20,818 nt of DNA from positions 1 to 20,818 of IMG/VR virus record IMGVR_UViG_3300049734_000529; one strand, given 5' to 3'. Positions 2,954 through 20,818 of this stretch are shown here, in pieces; positions within the stretch are counted from its first letter, which is position 1, and the number at the start of each line of letters is the position of its first letter. The notes beneath the pieces were generated by a model. That model had not been told where the DNA came from. It searched no databases and saw only the letters and a list, made by a program, of their open reading frames with translations. A program made the translations under genes and the position numbers. Source of the DNA: a virus.

Positions 2954-3096
2954 GGCTGTAATTGGACCTGGCCGACCCGGTTTGAACCATCCTGGTTCAC
3001 AACGTCGCTCCGGTGATAGGTGGCGTTGCGCCCAACAAAAACACAGCCGGCCAGGGCGCCAAGCAGCACCAGAATGAGTAGGCACTTTTTCATCAT
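2950..3096 (-). CDS. Small lipoprotein with lipobox
   Basis: This encodes 48 residues. The chosen start is ATG 3096, which overlaps the stop of the 1107-residue gene (ATGA) and gives a proper signal peptide. The longer frame upstream would place charged sequence in front of it. The signal runs MMKK, then a hydrophobic core CLLILVLLGALAG, then the lipobox LAGC with the lipidated Cys at residue 18. The residue after Cys is Val, not Asp, so in a proteobacterial-type host it would be sorted to the outer membrane. The mature peptide is only 31 residues and polar, without the proline richness of Rz1. Possible roles are an outer spanin, a superinfection-exclusion or receptor-masking lipoprotein like T5 Llp, or an unrelated small lipoprotein. 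The lipoprotein call is strong; the role is unknown. Confidence 0.75.
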   Translation of the reverse strand: MMKKCLLILVLLGALAGCVFVGRNATYHRSDVVNQDGSNRVGQVQLQP

Positions 3097-6000
3097 CCTG
3101 GTTTCACCCCGGCCGGCCAAAGCATCACGACGAACCCGCCGTTGCCATCCCACCCGGTCCCGCCCAAGAGGGAATAAAGTGCGCTCGGGTCGGCCGTTGT
3201 TCCCAAAGACGCAATATCCGCCCATGTGCCATTAAGAGGTTTCGCGGAATGCGCTTCAATATCGGTTGCGCCCCACTGACAGGCTGGCGTTGGGAAAATC
3301 CCGAGGCGGTGTGCGGGCAGGGTCCAGCCTGGAGGCGCTCCGGTCGTGTCGGCACGGAACAGGTGAAGCCGCGGCGCCTCCCAATATGCGCTCCCGTTCT
3401 GCCACCAATTTTCCGTAAGCCAATCGGAGTTTTGATGCGTCGAGTTGTCGCCGAATTGAGAGAAAGTCGTGCGCACCCGACGGTCAAAGGGCAGGGTGTC
3501 TGTTTGAACGTCGTTGGTGCGGGCAACGCCCTGGTCAAGTTGCCCGAGCCATTCCGAGGCCTCATCAACAAAAACGGGTTCAGGCATAGGCCGCCATGCG
3601 GCAACCCTGAAAACTCCGCTTGGCGCAAACCAACTCGTGACGCCGGCAATCATAATAAAATCCGGCGTGGAGGATGAGTCGGGCACCATCGCAATCTGAG
3701 TGCGGTTGCCGAGCCCACCCCAGCCAATCAAATTTGCTGTCCGCAACGGAGGCCGGACCTTGATGAACTTATGACCGCGGGCCAGGCGAAAGAACCGGAA
3801 TGGAATCCCGAGGCTAGCGGCCTTGACCTGAACATCGCCGATTGTCACCCAGCGGAAATCCGGCAGGACAGCCTCGGCGTTGTTGATGCCCCACCAGCGA
3901 AGGGCCGGGTTGCCCGACACCAGGTTTCCCTGGAACCAGGGCGGCGGCATGCTTGAAACCTCGGGAATCACAACGGCAATGTTGCTCTGAGAAAGTTCCC
4001 GGTCCGGCCGCCAGTAAAGGCAGAGGTCATTCAGGAGGTTATGCGAGAGGAAGGCCGTGTAGACGACAGGCGCCGCAACGGTGCCGGTTGTAGACTCAAC
4101 TGCCGTGTCCTCCCAACTGACGATTTCCGGGTAACGGGTGGCGAAGGTCCGAACGGTTATCCCAAGGTCCGCGGCGCGGTCGTTGGTTTCGCTGCCGAGC
4201 TCGGCGGTTGCGCAGTAGTCCCCGGGGAAAAGCGGACCGTCTTCGATTCCCACCGATGCAGGGCGGAACGGCGTCCCGTACCATTGGGCATCAAAGAAAC
4301 TAAAAGGCACAACTTCCGAAATGGCGTTCAGCCGGGCGGCAAGAATATTGAAATGTTCGGACATGAGCCCGACGCCGAGGTTGGGAACCTTTTCCCCGGC
4401 CGGCCTGGTGCCGGCGTAAATTTCGGTGCGGTGCGCAGCCCACCATGCAGGGTCAAGAGCCTTCACTTTGAGAAGGTCCAGCATGTCCTCGGAGATGTAG
4501 AGCGGGACGCCGAAGGTCGGACGGGTCGGTATCGGCGGGCTCTCGAATCGTGCAATGCCGGACAGGGGCGCCTGCGTTGTGGGTTTTGCCGCCCAATCCG
4601 CGCCGGTTGGTTGGCCTCGGGCGGCAAGGATCATCGGTTGAAAGACGATGTCATCCACAGCCGCCTCCCACTTGCGGCGCCGACGCTCTGGCAGGAACCA
4701 GACGCCGCCAATGGGAGGCACAACCTGAACCTCTCCTATCTGGAACCAATGCGCCTTGGTTTCCTCCACGCTCACCGAATGACTGGCCCAAAGATCGGCC
4801 AGGGAGGAACCCGGTGAACCGTTGCCGGTCCTCGTCTGGAAATCGACCGCAAGAAGCTTTGCCAGGCGCCGGCCGTCCCACCTGGTTTCGTCCAGGGGAA
4901 AGGCAGACCAGGTGTTTTCAACCGGCCCGTAAGCGTCCACGTCAGCAATGGCGGTGTCGCCGAAGGCCTGCCAGAATTCCCCGCCCGGCGTGCTGCCTTC
5001 GGGCCCGAGGAAAACGTGGTCCTGATTAACTGTGGTCCCGCGGCCGTAAGCCGTCTCCTCTACCGTTGAACTGGCGACCCGGTATAGGACCGGCTTCGGC
5101 AACACAACGCCGTCATCAACCGAAGTCCCGCCTGGTGGCACGTAAATAGGCCCGGCCCGCAGGGAACACGACAAGCAAATGACATCGGTGAAATCGGGGA
5201 CCGGTGTCTTCATGTCCTCAAGGAGAAGGTCGTTGCTGCGAACGGTCAGCTTGAGGCCAGAAAGAGGGTCGCCGCCCGCTTCCTGCATGGCGTCCAGGTC
5301 GAGATTGACGGCCGTGTTCGTAAAGACCCCGTCCTTGCTCCGGCAGATGATTGCCTCCCCGCCGTGATGCCGGAGCCGCCACACTGGCGTCTCGGGATTC
5401 TCGGCGTCTCCGAGCGGAGGACAGGAAGGCGGCGCCGGCATCATCTCGGAACGCTTCAGCCAGATGCCGGTTCGCTGGTCATAGGCGTCTGAGAGCCCGC
5501 CACCCGGCAGGGAATCCCTCATTTCCCAAGGCGTGCCGGTCGGGGTGAAACATTCAAGGGCCCAAAAGACCGCGGCGAAGCTGGCGACATTGTTTGCCGC
5601 GTCGGCGTCGGCGAGGATTTGCCAGGGGTTTGCCTCGGGATTAGCGCGGACCTTGTCATTCCAGGGCATCGTGTTTCCGAACCTGGCAATGTCAGAGCCT
5701 CGCGCTCGGAATAGAAGAAAGCCCTGCCGCTCCCATGTCGGCCCGGTCGGATTCCGTCGGTACGCGAGGCAATCCCAAGGGTTCAGGTTGAAGGCCTGTC
5801 CTGTCTCCTCAAAAGTAACGACAAGCGGCGTCGGGTTCGGGTCCAGATTGTGAAACCGGACGCACTGGAATTTGTTCCACGCCGTAGGCCAGGTGAAGAC
5901 TCGGGCGGTCTGCCCCTCAAAGACAACGTCAGCAACGGCAAGATCGTGGACGTGTTCAAAGTACCAGATTGCTCCGGTGCTCCCACCCGTGCTAAGGAAA

Positions 6001-6416
6001 GTCCGAATCCAGTAATCTTCGGGGCTCCCTTGCGGATTCGTCACGGACCGTTTCTGCGCTTTCAGGGATTTATCAAAAGCATAGGTCGCAACCGCCCCGC
6101 TTAATGTAACCTGCTTGAGCGCGTGGTCGTAAATCTCGCTCTCTGCCCCTTCCCAAAGCGCGGAGGTTGCGGCCAGGGTGTCGAATGTCGCCTGGTTGTG
6201 GGACACTTCACCGGGAAGAATCTTGCGGTTTGCCTGCGTCCCAAAAAGGAACATGAGCCCGGCCAGGCGCGACGCGCGCCACGTTGCAAGGTTCAGAAAA
6301 AGGAGCGGGGACCGACCTTGAAAAAGCGCGGTCAGGGCGGAATCAAATGAATCCGCGACAGCGTTCATGTCCGCCGCCGTGATAGCAGAACCCGGGTTGA
6401 CATAGGCTATAGCCAC
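3093..6416 (-). CDS. Very large tail/tip structural protein of unknown family (1107 aa)
   Basis: The start is a GTG at 6416 that overlaps the end of the 68-residue gene by 10 bases; AAGGGTGA lies just upstream and resembles a ribosome site. The N-terminus, AIAYVNPGSAITAADMNAVADSF, is of a kind often seen in phage tail and fibre proteins. The rest is a long soluble sequence rich in Trp, Pro and Gly, with many beta-type stretches and no clear membrane segment, coiled coil or tandem repeat. I recognise no lambda gpJ, fibronectin, lysozyme, peptidase or pectate-lyase motif. It is the largest complete gene, lies downstream of the tape-measure candidate and just before a lipoprotein and the fibre, which is where lambda-like phages encode the tip or host-specificity protein. 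The call of a distal tail virion protein rests on position and size. Confidence 0.75.
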   Translation of the reverse strand: MAIAYVNPGSAITAADMNAVADSFDSALTALFQGRSPLLFLNLATWRASRLAGLMFLFGTQANRKILPGEVSHNQATFDTLAATSALWEGAESEIYDHALKQVTLSGAVATYAFDKSLKAQKRSVTNPQGSPEDYWIRTFLSTGGSTGAIWYFEHVHDLAVADVVFEGQTARVFTWPTAWNKFQCVRFHNLDPNPTPLVVTFEETGQAFNLNPWDCLAYRRNPTGPTWERQGFLLFRARGSDIARFGNTMPWNDKVRANPEANPWQILADADAANNVASFAAVFWALECFTPTGTPWEMRDSLPGGGLSDAYDQRTGIWLKRSEMMPAPPSCPPLGDAENPETPVWRLRHHGGEAIICRSKDGVFTNTAVNLDLDAMQEAGGDPLSGLKLTVRSNDLLLEDMKTPVPDFTDVICLSCSLRAGPIYVPPGGTSVDDGVVLPKPVLYRVASSTVEETAYGRGTTVNQDHVFLGPEGSTPGGEFWQAFGDTAIADVDAYGPVENTWSAFPLDETRWDGRRLAKLLAVDFQTRTGNGSPGSSLADLWASHSVSVEETKAHWFQIGEVQVVPPIGGVWFLPERRRRKWEAAVDDIVFQPMILAARGQPTGADWAAKPTTQAPLSGIARFESPPIPTRPTFGVPLYISEDMLDLLKVKALDPAWWAAHRTEIYAGTRPAGEKVPNLGVGLMSEHFNILAARLNAISEVVPFSFFDAQWYGTPFRPASVGIEDGPLFPGDYCATAELGSETNDRAADLGITVRTFATRYPEIVSWEDTAVESTTGTVAAPVVYTAFLSHNLLNDLCLYWRPDRELSQSNIAVVIPEVSSMPPPWFQGNLVSGNPALRWWGINNAEAVLPDFRWVTIGDVQVKAASLGIPFRFFRLARGHKFIKVRPPLRTANLIGWGGLGNRTQIAMVPDSSSTPDFIMIAGVTSWFAPSGVFRVAAWRPMPEPVFVDEASEWLGQLDQGVARTNDVQTDTLPFDRRVRTTFSQFGDNSTHQNSDWLTENWWQNGSAYWEAPRLHLFRADTTGAPPGWTLPAHRLGIFPTPACQWGATDIEAHSAKPLNGTWADIASLGTTADPSALYSLLGGTGWDGNGGFVVMLWPAGVKPG

Positions 6417-14894: not shown

Positions 14895-15965
14895 TCAAGC
14901 CGCAGCAGGAGCGATGAAGCGCGACCAATTCTGATGAGCCATCGCGATTCGCTTTCGGGGATCAGGTTCGGACACGACCAGGTCCTGGACGGATGCAACC
15001 ACGGTCGTATTGCGGGCCCGAATCGGTGCAACGCCAGGGCCGGGCGGACGCAACTGCGCCAGGACGGCAACGGTGGCTTCCTCATCATCCTCGTAGCGGG
15101 AAATCATCGCTTCGCGCAACGCCGATGGAAGGGCGCCTGTCCCAATGGCTGCGTCGACGGCAGCCAGGGCGCGCGCTTTCCGTGAGGCCCTGTCGGCGTT
15201 TTTGAGTCGATCATTTTCCGCCTTGAGGGCATCGCGCTCTGCGCGAACTGCGGCGATGTCCTCTGTCGGCGGGTTGGGGTTACTTCGGGCCGCGGGATTT
15301 TGGCATCCGCAAGCCGTAATGCTTTGTGGGTTCATTGTATTTCTCAGGTCTGCCGGCGGATGCCGGAAATTGGTTAAGTCAAAACTCATTTGAACTGCCG
15401 GGATTTCTGACACACTCGACACGAAGCCCGCTCCCTTCGCGTCCTCGCCGTTGAACCAGGTTTCATCAGCCATCCAGGCCTTTGCCTGTTCAACCGTTTG
15501 CCCCGTGTCCCTGGCGTAGACCGCGGCAATCTCCTCACCGATTTTCCGAAGATCGGCGGCGTTCTTTTCGTGGACGGCTGCCGGGCCAATCGAAATCCCG
15601 GCCGGCTCGTGAATCATCAGGAAGGCGCCAGCGGCTAAAGACCGTCGCTCCTTGGGCGCCGCCATGAAGACAATGGAGGCGGCGCTGGCGGCGAGCCCGT
15701 CAACGACAGCCGAAAGCTTCGGGAAGGTTCGGAGGTAGTTCGCAATCGCGACACCGGCAAAGGCGCTGCCGCCAGGGGAATTGATGCGGAGCGTGACGTC
15801 CCGGGCCCGGTAGGCAGCAGTCGCCTCAACGAAAGCCGGAGGACAGACCCCTCCGTAAAACTCACACCCAGAATCATAGATGGCGTCATAGATGTAGATT
15901 TCCACGGGCGCCGATTCCTCGGCTTGAGCGCGAACTTCGTACCAGGGAGAAGAGGGCGTATTCAT
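14895..15965 (-). CDS. Head maturation protease (ClpP/S49-type) with scaffold-like C-terminus
   Basis: This encodes 356 residues; the ATG shares a base with the portal stop (TGATG). Residues 1-200 form a ClpP-like serine protease: LRINSPGGSAFAG at 59-71, nucleophile Ser94 in GLAASAAS, His119 in FLMIHEPAG, and Asp167 in WMADETWFNG as the likely third triad member by alignment to ClpP. From about residue 235 there is a coiled-coil-like charged helix (AAVRAERDALKAENDRLKN), then an Ala-rich helical part. Family knowledge: lambda gpC-class proteases cleave scaffold and portal or capsid during prohead maturation, and their C-terminal region often contains the scaffold. No separate scaffold gene is seen, which fits. 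Confident call. Confidence 0.9.
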   Translation of the reverse strand: MNTPSSPWYEVRAQAEESAPVEIYIYDAIYDSGCEFYGGVCPPAFVEATAAYRARDVTLRINSPGGSAFAGVAIANYLRTFPKLSAVVDGLAASAASIVFMAAPKERRSLAAGAFLMIHEPAGISIGPAAVHEKNAADLRKIGEEIAAVYARDTGQTVEQAKAWMADETWFNGEDAKGAGFVSSVSEIPAVQMSFDLTNFRHPPADLRNTMNPQSITACGCQNPAARSNPNPPTEDIAAVRAERDALKAENDRLKNADRASRKARALAAVDAAIGTGALPSALREAMISRYEDDEEATVAVLAQLRPPGPGVAPIRARNTTVVASVQDLVVSEPDPRKRIAMAHQNWSRFIAPAAA

Positions 15966-17488
15966 CAGGCGTCGGGTTGGGTTGTCATTTCGTCCTCTGG
16001 ATTCATGGGGGCATCCGCGGAGGGAAAATCCTGGGCAGCAATCCGGTCAGGCGTGATGCCGCGAGCGGCGGCAATCGAATCCAAGAGCACAACCTCATCC
16101 GCCCGCTGTTTCAGTTCCTCAACGTAATCGAGCCCCATCTCGGCGAAGATGCGCCGGTAGTTGGTTGCCCCTGCCGCAAGTTCGCGAAGCATCGCGTATG
16201 AATTGCGCCCAACGTCAACATTGGGCGCCCGGGGTGGACGCTGGACGAACCGGCGCCAGGTGGCAGGAGGATCAGCCAGGCCCCGGTCAGTCTTTATGCC
16301 ATGCTCCAAGACGTAGTAATAAATTTGGGCGAACCCGCGAACAAACACCGCCGAGCGAATGCGGAACCAGGCCGCGGCAATATCAAGAACGCTCCGTTGC
16401 ACTGTGCCTTGCAAGGACCCGGAATAAACCATTTGCCGAGGGATACCGACGCCGGCGCAAATCTTCTCCTCCAGAAGTTGCCAGTAATCGCGAGTAGCCC
16501 CCGACGGCCGCTCAACCTTCAATTGCTCGATCTCATCCTCGTGCTGCAGGAAGAATGTCCTGCCCCCTACCGTGCTCTCGTAGTAAGTCCGCTTCTGTGC
16601 TTGGGTCATTGCACCTTCAGGCGTGAGCCCACCCGTATAGAGAGCTTCCCCAACATCAGCCGTGCCGCTCTTGTTTTTAATGACATTGGTGATCTGCGAG
16701 CCATCTCTCGCCGCCTTGCTTTCCGTTAGCTGCAAGTCGTCAAGGTCGTGGATGTCATTGAGAACCGCATGCAACATGGGTTCGCCTCGATATAGACCGG
16801 GCCGCGAAGGCTCGAAAATGTGGACAATGAATTCCTTGGGGATCAGGCGCCACGTCTTCTGCCCCAGAGCGCCGGGCACGTCTTCGCCAATCCAGTACCC
16901 CGTCGGGCGGCCCTTGGAATCAATCGCCACGCCGTCAATGATTGAAATGCCTTCTTCAGCCTGACGATCAGGAGGCGTCTCGCACTGATCCGACTCAAGC
17001 ATCTGCACTTTGGGATTTCCCTCATCGTCCTGTGTCAGCAGGAAGAGGGCTTCGCCATCAACGAGGACCCGCCGCGCCGCGAGTTGCTGGAGACTGTTGA
17101 ATCCACGGAGGGAGACGAAGTCTCCGACGGGTTCCCAGTCAACCCAGTGGGCCCGGGCCCGCTGGTTCCATTCGACATCATCGCTTGCCGGATAAAAGCC
17201 GATGCCAATCCCGACGGTGTATTGCTCGAAAAGATCAACCAGCCGTTGAACCAGGGCATTGTTCCGTTCCCAGTACCGGCTTTTCTTCTGCAATTCCCGA
17301 CGCGCTGGCGGCGATAAATCGAGCCGGGCCGATTGAAGCGGTGCTGAAACGTATGACCGGTAAGGCTGATTCCTTGCCCCCTCGTAATGACCAAAGATCG
17401 CTTTGGAAACTGAACCAACCGCGGCCTTGATTCCATTCCATGCAGCCCTAACTCCGTTCCCAACCCGCGTGAGAATTCCGGGGTTCAT
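15965..17488 (-). CDS. Portal protein, lambda gpB family
   Basis: This encodes 507 residues from ATG 17488, seven bases after the TAA of the gpW-like gene. Hallmarks of the Phage_portal_2 family are visible: an N-terminal RSYVSAPLQSARLDLSPPAR region, then RRELQKKSRYWERNNALVQRLVDLF (a clip/helix region), GIGFYPASDDVEWNQRARAHWVDW, a VDGEALFLLTQDDEG segment, IPKEFIVHIFEPSRPGLYRGEP, AVLNDIHDLDDLQLTESKAAR and KICAGVGIPRQMVYSGSLQGT. The portal forms the dodecameric DNA channel at the unique vertex, docks terminase and anchors the neck. Length and neighbours (gpW-like before, ClpP-like protease after) match lambda order. No disruption was seen. Confidence 0.95.
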   Translation of the reverse strand: MNPGILTRVGNGVRAAWNGIKAAVGSVSKAIFGHYEGARNQPYRSYVSAPLQSARLDLSPPARRELQKKSRYWERNNALVQRLVDLFEQYTVGIGIGFYPASDDVEWNQRARAHWVDWEPVGDFVSLRGFNSLQQLAARRVLVDGEALFLLTQDDEGNPKVQMLESDQCETPPDRQAEEGISIIDGVAIDSKGRPTGYWIGEDVPGALGQKTWRLIPKEFIVHIFEPSRPGLYRGEPMLHAVLNDIHDLDDLQLTESKAARDGSQITNVIKNKSGTADVGEALYTGGLTPEGAMTQAQKRTYYESTVGGRTFFLQHEDEIEQLKVERPSGATRDYWQLLEEKICAGVGIPRQMVYSGSLQGTVQRSVLDIAAAWFRIRSAVFVRGFAQIYYYVLEHGIKTDRGLADPPATWRRFVQRPPRAPNVDVGRNSYAMLRELAAGATNYRRIFAEMGLDYVEELKQRADEVVLLDSIAAARGITPDRIAAQDFPSADAPMNPEDEMTTQPDA

Positions 17489-17495
17489 AGCCGCT

Positions 17496-17873
17496 TTAGC
17501 AACCGCAACCCCGAAGGCCCGAGGAATGATGAACGAGGTAGCGGGGCGCCGGCGCCGTGATAATCACTTTCAGGCACTCGAGCTTTTCCTCGTCCGTACC
17601 TAGGCACTGGGGGCAAAGGCTGGCGGCCTGAGCCAATACCTCAATGGCTTGATCTTGAGGAATCGTATCATTGTCCCCATCCCCATAGCTGACGCTCTGG
17701 CCGGCGTTGGAAACGGAAACGATTCTTCGCCCCGCCCCAGTGGTTGCACCTGATACCGCCTCCTTCCGCGCCGCCTTCAGATAATCGCAGAAAGGCACTC
17801 CGGCCGCCTGCGCTGCATCAAACAATCCATCCAGAATGCCTTCTATGATCCCGGGTGAGAGATTCGTTGCCAC
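17496..17873 (-). CDS. gpW-like head-tail joining protein with cysteine-rich tail
   Basis: The frame is open up to 18104, but that would include much unlikely sequence overlapping the HTH gene. I chose GTG 17873, 76 bases after the HTH gene stop, giving 125 residues. Residues about 30-63 (YLKAARKEAVSG, GRRIVSVSNAGQSVSYGD) follow the pattern of lambda gpW: helix, A.....A...G, then a hairpin V..V...G..V.Y. Its position between terminase and portal is also that of gpW. gpW closes the head and is needed for tail joining. The C-terminus is odd: CPQC at 87-90, C100 and CGC at 123-125, which might bind metal. The gpW match is from pattern and synteny, so moderate. Confidence 0.55.
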   Translation of the reverse strand: MATNLSPGIIEGILDGLFDAAQAAGVPFCDYLKAARKEAVSGATTGAGRRIVSVSNAGQSVSYGDGDNDTIPQDQAIEVLAQAASLCPQCLGTDEEKLECLKVIITAPAPRYLVHHSSGLRGCGC

Positions 17874-17949: not shown

Positions 17950-18126
17950 TTAGGCCTCGAAACCGCGGGCCCGGAGCATGCGCAAGGTTGCCCGCTCCGG
18001 GTAAACAACAAGCCTTTGATTGACGCGCACGCGCAAATCCCGAAGCCCAAGCTTTCCCTCGTTGCGCTGAATGGAACGGGCAGAGAGCCCGGTGCGCCTC
18101 GCAATTTCCTTTCGCGTCAGGTTCAT
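17950..18126 (-). CDS. Small helix-turn-helix DNA-binding protein (58 aa)
   Basis: The ATG at 18126 overlaps the stop of the upstream membrane-protein gene (ATGA), and the frame ends in TAA at 17950. The 58-residue product begins MNLTRKEIARRTGLSARSIQRNE: a first helix, then a RTGLS turn and a recognition helix SARSIQRNE, followed by a basic stretch with a hairpin-like RVRVNQRLVVYP and a final helix ATLRMLRARGF. This is the layout of winged HTH domains of the excisionase/MerR/Nu1 kind. An HTH gene at this place in a packaging cluster is not standard. It may bind the packaging site with terminase, or regulate the late operon. The HTH call is strong; the role is open. Confidence 0.7.
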   Translation of the reverse strand: MNLTRKEIARRTGLSARSIQRNEGKLGLRDLRVRVNQRLVVYPERATLRMLRARGFEA

Positions 18127-18422: not shown

Positions 18423-18488
18423 TCAACACCCGGATGCACAGCGGCGAACCGTCGGGAGCATGTGGCGAACCAAGGTCCAAACATTCAT
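18423..18488 (-). CDS. Possible 21-residue mini-ORF after large terminase
   Basis: An ATG at 18488 overlaps the terminase TGA in an ATGA unit and the frame ends in TGA at 18423, six bases before the next start. The 21 residues include MNVWTLVRHMLP and two cysteines near the end. The overlap geometry matches that of real junctions here, but so short a frame can easily arise by chance, and no family is recognised. Confidence 0.25.
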   Translation of the reverse strand: MNVWTLVRHMLPTVRRCASGC

Positions 18489-20422
18489 GACGCTGCCACA
18501 GAACCTGCATTTTCAGCCTGCAAAGTCGAGATTTTAAGGCGCCGGTGGATCATCGCCGCCACGACCTGCAAGAGCTCGCAGTCCAAAAGATGGTCGGCTG
18601 CTTTCTGCGTCCGGCTGGCCCACTTCATCACGACCTTGCCACGGCGCGCATCGGCAAAAGCCTTCCGGCCCCAGGAATCGAGTTGCAGATAATACGCGTC
18701 CTCATCCACCCGGCGCGCGCCGGGGACATCCACGCCGGCCGGGAACGGAACCAAGGCCCACACAGGCGCCCCTTCCTTGCCATCCCGCAGCCTCGCCAAG
18801 AGGTCGCGCACTGATTCGGCGTCCCACTCCACCAGGGGCAATTCAACGCGCATCTGGGGCGGCAGAGCGGCTCGCCCGAAGAAATACGGCGCCGGCTTCC
18901 GACCATTCTTGTCGATCCACACTAGCCGCCCTTCCCGGGACTTTGCTGGCGTCCACCCCACAAAGAGCGGGTTGCCATTGGCCCGCGGCAAAACCTTGGC
19001 GTGCCCCATGCACCGCGCATAGACCTCCTGGCCATTGAAGCCTGAGTCAACGAGGACCCGGTGGTTCTCCACCTGGTGCGCCAGTTGAATCCGGGCCAGG
19101 TCCTCCCACTGGTCGCAATGCCCGGCAAAGACAAGATGCGACTCGCCGGATTCGCCCCATTCCCGAATCACGACCCAGAACATCGGCGACAAGGCCTGCA
19201 CGTCCACGGTCATCAACCGAATCCCGCCCGGGACGGGATCGGACCCGAGCCACACCGCATCAGCCCGCCGGGACCGGATGGCAACCGTCTGATCCTCCCA
19301 GGGCTCCGCGAGTTCGCCCGTGATGAAACCTTGAAGCCCGACCAGGGAGGCCTTCGCCGTCAAAAACTTCATAGCGAGCCGGCCAAAGGTCGTTTCCGGT
19401 GAACTGGCGTACAGGCTCGGCAAATGCCAACTCCGATGAGAGGCGATGCCCGGCACCGTCGGAACCCAGCGCCCATCCCGCACCATCCGGGTCTTGTGCC
19501 CGTCCAGAATGTGCCCGCCGCAATACGGGCACTCGGCTCGAGCAGAACGCACCACCCGGGCCATGTCCCACGAGCCATCCTGGCGAGATGCTTCCGAGTC
19601 CCACCGGACAAAAGCCTCCCGCCCGGTCAGCCGGAAAAGCGTGTGATCCTTGCTCCACGCCAGGAGGAGGAACTTGTCGCAATGGACGCACGGCACCTCA
19701 TAGCGCCGCTGGTCGCCGGCCAGGAATCCCTGCCATATCGGGCCATCCGGCAAAGTCGGTGTCGACGTTCTCCACCGTTGCGGATTTGCAAAAGCCTTCG
19801 TTCGCTGTTCGGCCAGGGAGATTGCATCGGATTCACGCTCACTCGCTGGGGCGAACTTGTCCGTCTCATCACAGAGAAGAAGCCGGACCGGCCGGGAGGC
19901 AAGGTTGCTCGGACTGTTCGAACCGACCAGGGAGATCACCGCACCGCCGAGCTGCATCTGGGCGACCTTGTAAGCGTGCCGGTCAGTTCCACGAGGAACA
20001 AGCCGCGCTAAATCGGCCGTCGCCTCGATGATTGGTTGGAGTCTGGTCTCCGAATAGTTCCGCGCCAGGTCGCTATTGGGCATGACGACCAGACACGAGC
20101 ACGGCGCATTCGCCACCGACCACAGGAGGCCGACACTCAGGGTCGTCGTCTTGCTGACCTGGCTGCCCGTCACCGCGGCGCAGTCGGTTACTCCGGGCAC
20201 GTTGAAGGTGTCGAGCCATTCGCGAGCAAACTCGCGGGTCCGCAGCGAGAACCTGCCTGGGCTCGGCGTTTGCGGGCCCGGGATGACCACCACCCTCTCA
20301 GCCCACTGCGACACCGTTTCCCGCGGCGGCGGCCGGAGCAGGCTGGCGATCCACCCGTTGACGTCGGCGCGTTGGTTCCGGCGCACGGCGACGGTTTGCA
20401 GTCGTTCGAGGACGACGTTCAT
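18485..20422 (-). CDS. Terminase large subunit, GpA family
   Basis: Start ATG 20422 was chosen because GAGG lies about six bases upstream and the sequence from there matches the family; the open frame extends to 20581 but that part is Pro/Arg-rich filler. The product has 645 residues. VTGSQVSKTT (residues 84-93) is the P-loop-like region, LLLCDETD (181-188) is the Walker B segment with its acidic pair, CVHC (245-248) and CPYCGGH (298-304) form a probable zinc-binding element, and the later nuclease part shows LMTVDVQA (403-410) and VLVDSGFNGQEVY (456-468). Lambda gpA-type terminases translocate DNA into the prohead and cut at cos or pac. It overlaps the small-subunit frame by 125 bases. Strong call. 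Confidence 0.95.
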   Translation of the reverse strand: MNVVLERLQTVAVRRNQRADVNGWIASLLRPPPRETVSQWAERVVVIPGPQTPSPGRFSLRTREFAREWLDTFNVPGVTDCAAVTGSQVSKTTTLSVGLLWSVANAPCSCLVVMPNSDLARNYSETRLQPIIEATADLARLVPRGTDRHAYKVAQMQLGGAVISLVGSNSPSNLASRPVRLLLCDETDKFAPASERESDAISLAEQRTKAFANPQRWRTSTPTLPDGPIWQGFLAGDQRRYEVPCVHCDKFLLLAWSKDHTLFRLTGREAFVRWDSEASRQDGSWDMARVVRSARAECPYCGGHILDGHKTRMVRDGRWVPTVPGIASHRSWHLPSLYASSPETTFGRLAMKFLTAKASLVGLQGFITGELAEPWEDQTVAIRSRRADAVWLGSDPVPGGIRLMTVDVQALSPMFWVVIREWGESGESHLVFAGHCDQWEDLARIQLAHQVENHRVLVDSGFNGQEVYARCMGHAKVLPRANGNPLFVGWTPAKSREGRLVWIDKNGRKPAPYFFGRAALPPQMRVELPLVEWDAESVRDLLARLRDGKEGAPVWALVPFPAGVDVPGARRVDEDAYYLQLDSWGRKAFADARRGKVVMKWASRTQKAADHLLDCELLQVVAAMIHRRLKISTLQAENAGSVAAS

Positions 20423-20696
20423 CGAGGACCTCTTTCTCAAGCTCCTGGCAGACCCGGTCCAGGATGCGCGTGATGGTTTCCCGGAAGACCTCTGCGGCCA
20501 GCACGGGGTCACTGGGATTGGCCTGATACGAACAGGCCGTGGGCACCTCGAGGAGTTGCTGGCGCAGCCCGGCAAGAACACCCGACAGCCGCGCCTTCAC
20601 CGCGGCGATGGTTGTCGTCTCGCCGGTCAATCGAAGCCGCTCCAATTCAAGAAGATCAGCCCGCGCCCTGGATTCCCGGGCTCGCTCGTGCCGCAA
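20298..20696 (-). CDS. Putative terminase small subunit (Nu1-like)
   Basis: The frame runs from TTG 20696 to a stop at 20298 (132 residues) and is open upstream to a stop at 20766. A CTG at 20762 would give 154 residues and overlaps an upstream TGA as CTGA. Neither start has a good ribosome site. Residues 1-45 read as a charged helix (ESRARADLLELERLRLTGE, then TTTIAAVKARLSGVLAGLRQQLLEVP), similar to the long helices C-terminal to the HTH of Nu1-type small terminases. The ITRILDRVCQELEKEV helix follows. No N-terminal HTH is visible in this frame. The last 40 residues are Arg/Pro/Ala-rich and overlap terL by 125 bases. The call rests mainly on position before terL. Confidence 0.6.
   Translation of the reverse strand: MRHERARESRARADLLELERLRLTGETTTIAAVKARLSGVLAGLRQQLLEVPTACSYQANPSDPVLAAEVFRETITRILDRVCQELEKEVLDERRPRTTANRRRAPEPTRRRQRVDRQPAPAAAAGNGVAVG
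20428..20435 (-). promoter_or_regulatory. Ribosome binding site of large terminase
   Basis: On the minus strand AAAGAGGTCCTCG precedes ATG 20422. GAGG at this spacing is a fair Shine-Dalgarno match and lies inside the small-terminase frame. It decides the terminase start over the longer upstream open frame. Confidence 0.6.
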
Positions 20697-20758
20697 ATCA
20701 ATTGCGGCGTCGGTCCAGCGGCGGGAATCGGTCTTCGTCTGCGATTTCCGGATCTGCT

Positions 20759-20818
20759 TCAGAAGTCAGTACCAATGATTACGACGGACTTAGGCGATTT
20801 GGCCGCGGTGCCCGAACC
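20759..20818 (-). CDS. Possible 3' end of an upstream gene (partial)
   Basis: From the right edge, one minus-strand frame encodes 19 residues (including KSPKSVVIIGTDF) and ends in TGA at 20759. The stop overlaps a CTG that could start the small terminase. The other two frames hit stops within the window edge region. It is too short to identify and may not be coding. Confidence 0.3.
   Translation of the reverse strand, partial: GSGTAAKSPKSVVIIGTDF

Follow-up and report, generated by a model that had tools for sequence, protein, structure and literature searches.

The phage recorded in the window, by which we mean the whole 20,818-nucleotide stretch analysed here (IMG/VR record IMGVR_UViG_3300049734_000529), belongs to a little-known group of phages that carry a DNA-binding gene shortly behind the gene for the packaging motor. 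The gene occupying this place in the window, hereafter the slot, is a real winged helix-turn-helix (HTH) gene of 58 codons. Most of the related phages examined retain some gene of this type in the slot, which makes it probable that the gene serves in packaging or in late gene control and is no stray open reading frame (ORF). Our preferred reading, held tentatively at a probability of about 0.42, is that its product acts as an accessory DNA-recognition protein of the terminase.

The 58-codon gene and its predicted fold

The packaging genes of the window lie on the minus strand in the order small terminase-like (TerS), large terminase (TerL), DUF1360-like, HTH, a ~125-aa gene, and the gene for a lambda-family portal protein (Table 1). 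On inspection of the ORF, the slot gene runs from an ATG at 18126 to a stop at 17950, and its start codon shares an ATGA with the stop of the 97-aa DUF1360-like gene, which sits between it and terL; the coupling to an upstream gene described in a first-pass annotation of this DNA is thus confirmed, with the DUF1360-like gene as the partner. No equivalent ORF was seen by eye at that place in L090 and L091, two relatives. The same annotation had positioned the HTH gene between the terminase region and a gpW-like gene; the order stands, but the gpW label draws no support from Pfam or PHROGs profiles and describes position only. An Rfam scan of the window gave nothing at the gathering threshold, and a 1107-aa protein at 3093-6416 had no PHROG match at E 0.001.

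Table 1. Features of the packaging block in the window.
Feature	Position	Strand	Basis and remarks
Slot gene (group 1), winged HTH, 58 aa	17950..18126	minus	ORF, ATGA overlap, relatives' profile, AlphaFold2, codon GC
Terminase large subunit, GpA type	18485..20422	minus	profile E 1.8e-51; start taken as ATG 20422, frame open from GTG 20581
DUF1360-like gene, 97 aa	18123..18416	minus	PF07098 E 7e-4, 20 bits, just below Pfam cut-off of 21; phrog_781 E 2.9e-6
Gene in gpW position, ~125 aa, between HTH and portal genes	17496..17873	minus	ORF; GTG 17873 proposed start
Portal protein, lambda family	15965..17488	minus	PF05136 E 6.8e-48
Terminase small subunit without N-terminal HTH	20298..20762	minus	phrog_57 and relatives' TerS profile; start uncertain (CTG 20762 or TTG 20696)
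GC-rich contig end, probable genome terminus (cos), inferred	20796..20818	minus	relatives' contigs end at similar stretches just before terS

Family searches with the single 58-aa sequence returned HTH matches that were all below threshold (best Pfam E 0.026, PHROG 0.099), and NCBIfam returned no match. Likewise, a pattern search of IMG/VR with this sequence found no relatives, a search of phage records gave one insignificant match (E 0.4), and a portal pattern scan gave no matches. As these single-sequence searches could not demonstrate winged-HTH identity, it was established through a profile of relatives, with AlphaFold2 in support. In a scan of 29,169 ORFs of 40 aa or more, taken from both strands of 344 loci with distinct TerL DNA, a profile built from 11 relatives, with the window omitted, matched the window protein at E 5.2e-16, which together with the AlphaFold2 model bears out the earlier description of a small winged-HTH-like gene. 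The GC content of the gene by codon position (0.64/0.47/0.69) is similar to that of the TerL, portal, and protease genes, and the protein is basic, with a net charge of +10. A chance ORF was ruled out as an explanation by the profile match and by the related phages L224 and L225, whose GerE-type slot genes differ at 0 non-synonymous and 12 synonymous codons.

From the 21 group 1 proteins, AlphaFold2 predicted a confident winged HTH (pLDDT 92.3), with helices at residues 5-12, 16-21, and 23-26, a strand at 40-43, and a helix at 44-53. The model of a second group of slot proteins (L308; pLDDT 86.8) has a similar order of elements, with helices at 13-19 and 24-33, a strand at 41-43, and a helix at 44-53. 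Foldseek E-values for the group 1 model were weak (best 0.16). In VIA-align, its neighbours included the excisionases 8c3t (Z 6.8), Pukovnik Xis 4j2n (6.4), and 8dgl (6.0), the regulator BldC (6.8) with SoxR and other MerR-type regulators also close, and the terminase small subunits 7lw0 (6.4), 6hn7_B and 7lxs (both 5.5), and gpNu1 1j9i (4.9), with 7lwr, which has the same title as 7lw0, at 6.3; at Z below 8 such values may reflect merely a common arrangement, and a common fold is no demonstration of function. The best credible matches of the sequence profile to solved structures were BldC (E 0.014) and Pukovnik Xis (0.031), not TerS; 8vd6 was nominally stronger, but no stretch of it passed alone. 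A comparison with the Nu1 HTH and with excisionases, which had been suggested at the outset, therefore places both among the fold neighbours of the slot protein.

The three excisionases among the top structural neighbours, the small size and basic charge of the protein, and the match of the L178 slot protein to Cox-like and excisionase PHROGs (2e-6 to 1e-4) could point to an excisionase, or recombination directionality factor, placed in the late operon. We consider this very unlikely, as the slot belongs to the packaging block and, in records that may be fragments, integrase matches were found in only 4 of 27 slot-HTH records (1 above the cut-off) and serine recombinases in 0 of 15.

Occupants of the slot in related phages

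Relatives were collected through TerL, and two further scans with alignments led by relatives enlarged the set. Among 50,697 phage records, 626 match the window TerL, none of them reaching 60% identity (31% for the best-ranked among the matches listed); in TerL scans of IMG/VR, L090 and L091 stand at 50-51% identity to the window and the others at about 28-42%. A small basic HTH gene follows terL in many of these relatives. With the group 1 profile, 21 ORFs scored below 1e-9, and 20 of these lie in the slot behind terL (offsets of long ORFs were read by hand); the single exception is in L173. There, a group 1 HTH gene is inverted (L173:6435-6623, minus) and lies on the opposite strand 3 kb from terL, on a contig in which no portal gene was recognised. 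Weaker matches of this profile include N-terminal HTHs of TerS proteins, and the second group of slot proteins behaved alike in the profile scan of the 344 loci. By profile, 45 of the 344 loci have a match in the slot and 9 have matches elsewhere at E <1e-3, although profiles built from slot proteins show the location of such proteins and not their identity as HTHs.

The distribution of the slot gene was followed on a FastTree phylogeny of 75 TerL rows, from which TerLs below 295 bits or 380 aa were omitted and in which the L092-L169 family (72 TerLs) was thinned to every sixth and L346-L379 (19 TerLs) to every fourth. One branch of this tree holds 25 rows. Of the other 50, which do not form one clade with a midpoint root and include near-duplicates such as L231/L232, L176/L179, and L224/L225/L227, 45 have an HTH protein between terL and portal, recognised by profile in 43 and by eye in 2. 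The conservation beside terL for which the first-pass annotation had proposed to look is therefore present. Among the five exceptions, none was found in L305, L314, and L345, the L235 contig ends, and L173 has the displaced gene described above; within the 25-row branch (support 99), a slot HTH was found in 2 rows, both of group 2 (L337 and L340). In the openly available literature, subscription papers being largely out of reach, we found no account of an HTH gene placed between terL and either gpW or portal.

The occupants in the 45 rows are of several kinds: group 1 in 21, group 2 in 13, LuxR/GerE-type in 7, group 3 in 2, and one row each for the L090 and L306 kinds. Two of the seven LuxR/GerE-type proteins were checked, and both match GerE in Pfam (L315, E 1.3e-14; L224, E 1.9e-16). 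For group 3 (L091 and L334), the L090 kind, and L306, the HTH was called by eye, with sub-threshold Pfam matches (L091 0.12, L090 0.043, L306 0.071). For the slot proteins of L320 and L321, a search of the 50,697 phage records at E 0.01 gave nothing, and L310 carries a tandem pair of group 2 slot proteins behind terL (L310:2364-2831). In 22 of the 45 rows the terL stop is overlapped by 4 nt by an in-frame start codon (18 ATG, 3 TTG, 1 CTG); the window is not among these rows because its DUF1360-like gene intervenes, and L178, L234, and L323 are among the loci with further ORFs between terL and the slot gene. On the tree, the kind of occupant changes 23 times as against 8 changes in presence or absence; the slot is retained while its occupant is exchanged.

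A pattern of this sort would also be expected of exchangeable regulators, and the slot gene may instead encode a small transcription regulator of the late operon, for feedback control or early-gene shut-off, that is merely encoded behind terL. The GerE/LuxR-type HTHs found in the same slot of relatives are consistent with such a role, as are BldC, SoxR, and the other MerR-type regulators among the close structural neighbours. A regulator, however, would have no evident need for a fixed place in the packaging block or for an overlap with the terL stop.

Slot-type proteins were also sought in bacterial genomes. Against Verrucomicrobiota, the HTH profile had matches in 70 of 387 genomes at E <=1e-3, nearly all of them weak generic HTHs, with the exception of G160. 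Contig C229 of this genome contains a compact element (L402:929-6922) with a tyrosine integrase (E 1.7e-15), a DUF5906 gene (7e-8), a group 1 HTH (E 1e-16), and a capsid-like gene (Gp13-like, 0.0037, below the cut-off); the 12 kb examined held no TerL or portal match. This element is possibly a phage satellite.

The small terminase, the probable genome end, and close phage pairs

The TerS ORF of the window matches phrog_57 only at profile positions 79-175 of 199, and a profile of 26 relatives' TerS only at model positions 48-147 of 154 (E 2.5e-22). Together with the TerS alignment, these matches agree with the earlier observation that the small terminase candidate lacks a visible HTH. Of the 28 TerS proteins aligned, 26 were judged by eye to have their own HTH, leaving only the window and L091 without one. 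These 28 were chosen by eye among the TerS found near terL and do not represent all 50 rows; in L176/L179 no TerS was recognised. A TerS with its own HTH is accompanied by a slot HTH gene in L090, L174, L178, L307, L310, L311, L317, L321, and others. Complete TerS proteins are thus present in relatives, whereas the window, at 20.8 kb perhaps only a fragment of its genome, yielded none; close relatives do have the HTH gene. What the first-pass annotation had named as telling against a split subunit was therefore observed only in part. The second-best match of the TerS profile in the window is the 58-aa HTH protein itself, albeit a weak one (positions 6-37, E 0.029), and in likeness to TerS this protein ranks ninth among the 43 slot proteins scored.

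In both the window and L091, stops lie a few codons upstream of the TerS frame and the contig ends about 53 nt before it. A similar GC-rich stretch, located 53-73 nt ahead of the TerS frame, closes the contigs of the window, L091, and L171; the L090 contig runs through the place where these three end, and the contigs of several other relatives end about 30-80 nt before terS. GC-rich ends were noted in the window (Table 1) and at the contig starts of L091, L171, L304, L312, L321, L336, and others. Among 24 contig starts picked by eye, 13 begin with GGG or GGT, and those of L308, L309, L316, and L323 fall inside a reading frame; in the L092-L169 family, which is separate from this group, a common motif stands at the start of many contigs. 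From these features we infer that the contig ends are physical genome ends (cos). Given the similar contig ends near terS and the stops upstream of the frames, the loss of the N-terminal HTH from the window and L091 TerS is probably real. A mere contig-end effect was considered as an explanation for the missing HTH and appears untenable in view of the similar ends of the window, L091, and L171 and the continuation of L090 through them.

The HTH protein had been proposed to supply the DNA-recognition part of a split Nu1-type subunit. As a general role this does not hold, since relatives combine a complete TerS with a slot HTH, which indicates that the slot protein has some origin other than a half lost from TerS; it might apply in the window and L091, whose TerS lacks an HTH. 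Even for these two phages, we regard a small terminase split in this way, with the slot protein as its separate DNA-binding half, as distinctly unlikely. Both have a TerS ORF without an HTH as well as a slot HTH, and the likely genome end about 50 nt before their TerS frames leaves no room upstream, but the slot gene predates the HTH loss, being present in relatives with complete TerS, the two slot proteins differ in kind (groups 1 and 3), and that of the window is not especially TerS-like.

The close pair L311/L312 provides a view of where change falls. Their slot genes differ at 9 non-synonymous and 7 synonymous codons, compared with 8 non-synonymous and 224 synonymous differences in TerS, TerL, and a partial portal taken together (Fisher P 2.7e-8); the synonymous/non-synonymous counts are 40/0 for TerS, the protein being identical, 113/3 for TerL, and 71/5 for the partial portal. 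Six of the nine slot replacements (D17G, C22S, S23E, R24W, Y27K, and N28R) lie in residues 17-28, in and before the recognition helix. The stretch about 60-360 nt behind the slot gene is strongly diverged (29-45 differences per 100 nt), and local recombination is therefore possible. The signal of selection comes from this one pair only; it is weak for the L181/L182 slot gene (P 0.027), and the GerE-type pair L224/L225, with 0 non-synonymous and 12 synonymous differences, shows none. At the contig end of L311/L312, the first 24 nt differ at 5 places, for which neutral divergence could be the source, and the next 93 nt are identical. The identical stretch (nt 25-117) includes the first 20 terS codons, despite diverged synonymous sites elsewhere, and is a possible packaging signal overlapping the terS start.

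Possible roles of the slot protein and its closest known systems

A role in packaging is favoured by the constant position of the slot gene, by its overlap with the terL stop, and by a TerS that has lost its HTH. As an accessory recognition protein, the slot product would be a free-standing winged HTH that binds DNA and belongs to the packaging module, produced together with the terminase genes; it would be a protein that helps the terminase to find its DNA site and serves as a second, exchangeable recognition protein beside TerS. It would presumably bind the cos region and cooperate with TerS or TerL; where TerS has no HTH, as in the window and L091, it may be the main recognition domain. The predicted likeness to TerS DNA-binding domains is consistent with such a role, as are the apparent split of the TerS profile in the window between the TerS ORF and, weakly, the HTH protein, the concentration of L311/L312 change in the slot recognition helix with TerS unchanged, and, by analogy, the precedent of Rpp discussed below.

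Several features argue against an accessory recognition protein. In most relatives TerS has kept an HTH (26 of the 28 aligned), LuxR/GerE-type HTHs, which are typical of transcription factors, fill the slot in 7 rows, and a slot HTH was detected in only 2 rows of the 25-row branch and, by profile, in 45 of 344 loci. Moreover, the window, L091, and L171 ends look alike though their slot proteins are of three kinds, the slot protein is a bare domain without an Rpp-like oligomerisation part, and its neighbours by sequence profile are BldC and phage Xis, not TerS. The GerE-type occupants, the coexistence of the slot gene with complete TerS, and the similar contig ends despite different slot proteins make a late-operon regulator almost as likely as an accessory recognition protein, and the recognition-helix change in L311/L312 would fit a change of operator equally well.

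If the slot protein does join in the recognition of DNA ends, a phage could alter what it packages through the exchange of a single small gene, and the group would show how TerS can lose its recognition domain and would offer an equivalent of Rpp that belongs to the phage itself. A regulator, on the other hand, would mark a kept site of control within the packaging block of these uncultivated phages, one that is undescribed as far as our literature search shows. L311/L312 offer a ready natural swap for either reading. A bolder extension of the accessory-recognition reading, which we think rather unlikely, is that these cos phages carry an exchangeable cartridge beside terL, either a stand-alone winged HTH or a LuxR-type HTH in its stead, and that this cartridge determines the DNA end chosen by the terminase. 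Such a cartridge would let TerS shed its own DNA-binding domain, giving the split small terminase of the window and L091, and satellites may carry it to steer packaging, as an analogue of Rpp within the phage.

Among known systems, the slot protein resembles the excisionases (Pukovnik Xis 4j2n and the GIsul2 excisionase 8c3t) in size, basic charge, and MerR-like winged-HTH fold (Z 6.4-6.8), but its gene lies in a packaging block and an integrase is seldom found. BldC, a MerR-type regulator of bacterial development, is alike in fold (Z 6.8) and is the best credible sequence-profile match among solved structures (E 0.014); it is not known to be linked to phage packaging.

The N-terminal domain of lambda gpNu1 (TerS) has the same MerR-like winged-HTH fold, and the slot gene too stands in a terS-terL-portal block. 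The slot protein is predicted to have the N-terminal winged HTH that characterises Nu1-type TerS (Z 4.9-6.4 to TerS domains, below 8), but unlike gpNu1 it is free-standing, with its 58 aa wholly taken up by the HTH domain and no oligomerisation or TerL-binding part. In addition, the Nu1-type TerS gene of lambda lies directly upstream of terL, whereas the slot gene lies downstream of it in the window and relatives, and most relatives of the window phage have a TerS HTH besides the slot HTH.

A precedent for an accessory recognition protein is Rpp, the packaging redirector of PICI satellites. Its winged HTH joins TerS and changes which DNA is recognised, and the helix corresponding to the slot recognition helix is modelled as reading DNA (PMC6739421). 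Rpp is given as 139-154 aa in a second account (PMC9026076). Rpp and the slot protein are alike as non-TerS proteins with a TerS-like winged HTH that are tied to a terminase system, but Rpp has a C-terminal dimerisation domain and is borne by satellites, whereas the slot protein is a bare domain encoded in the phage's own packaging block.
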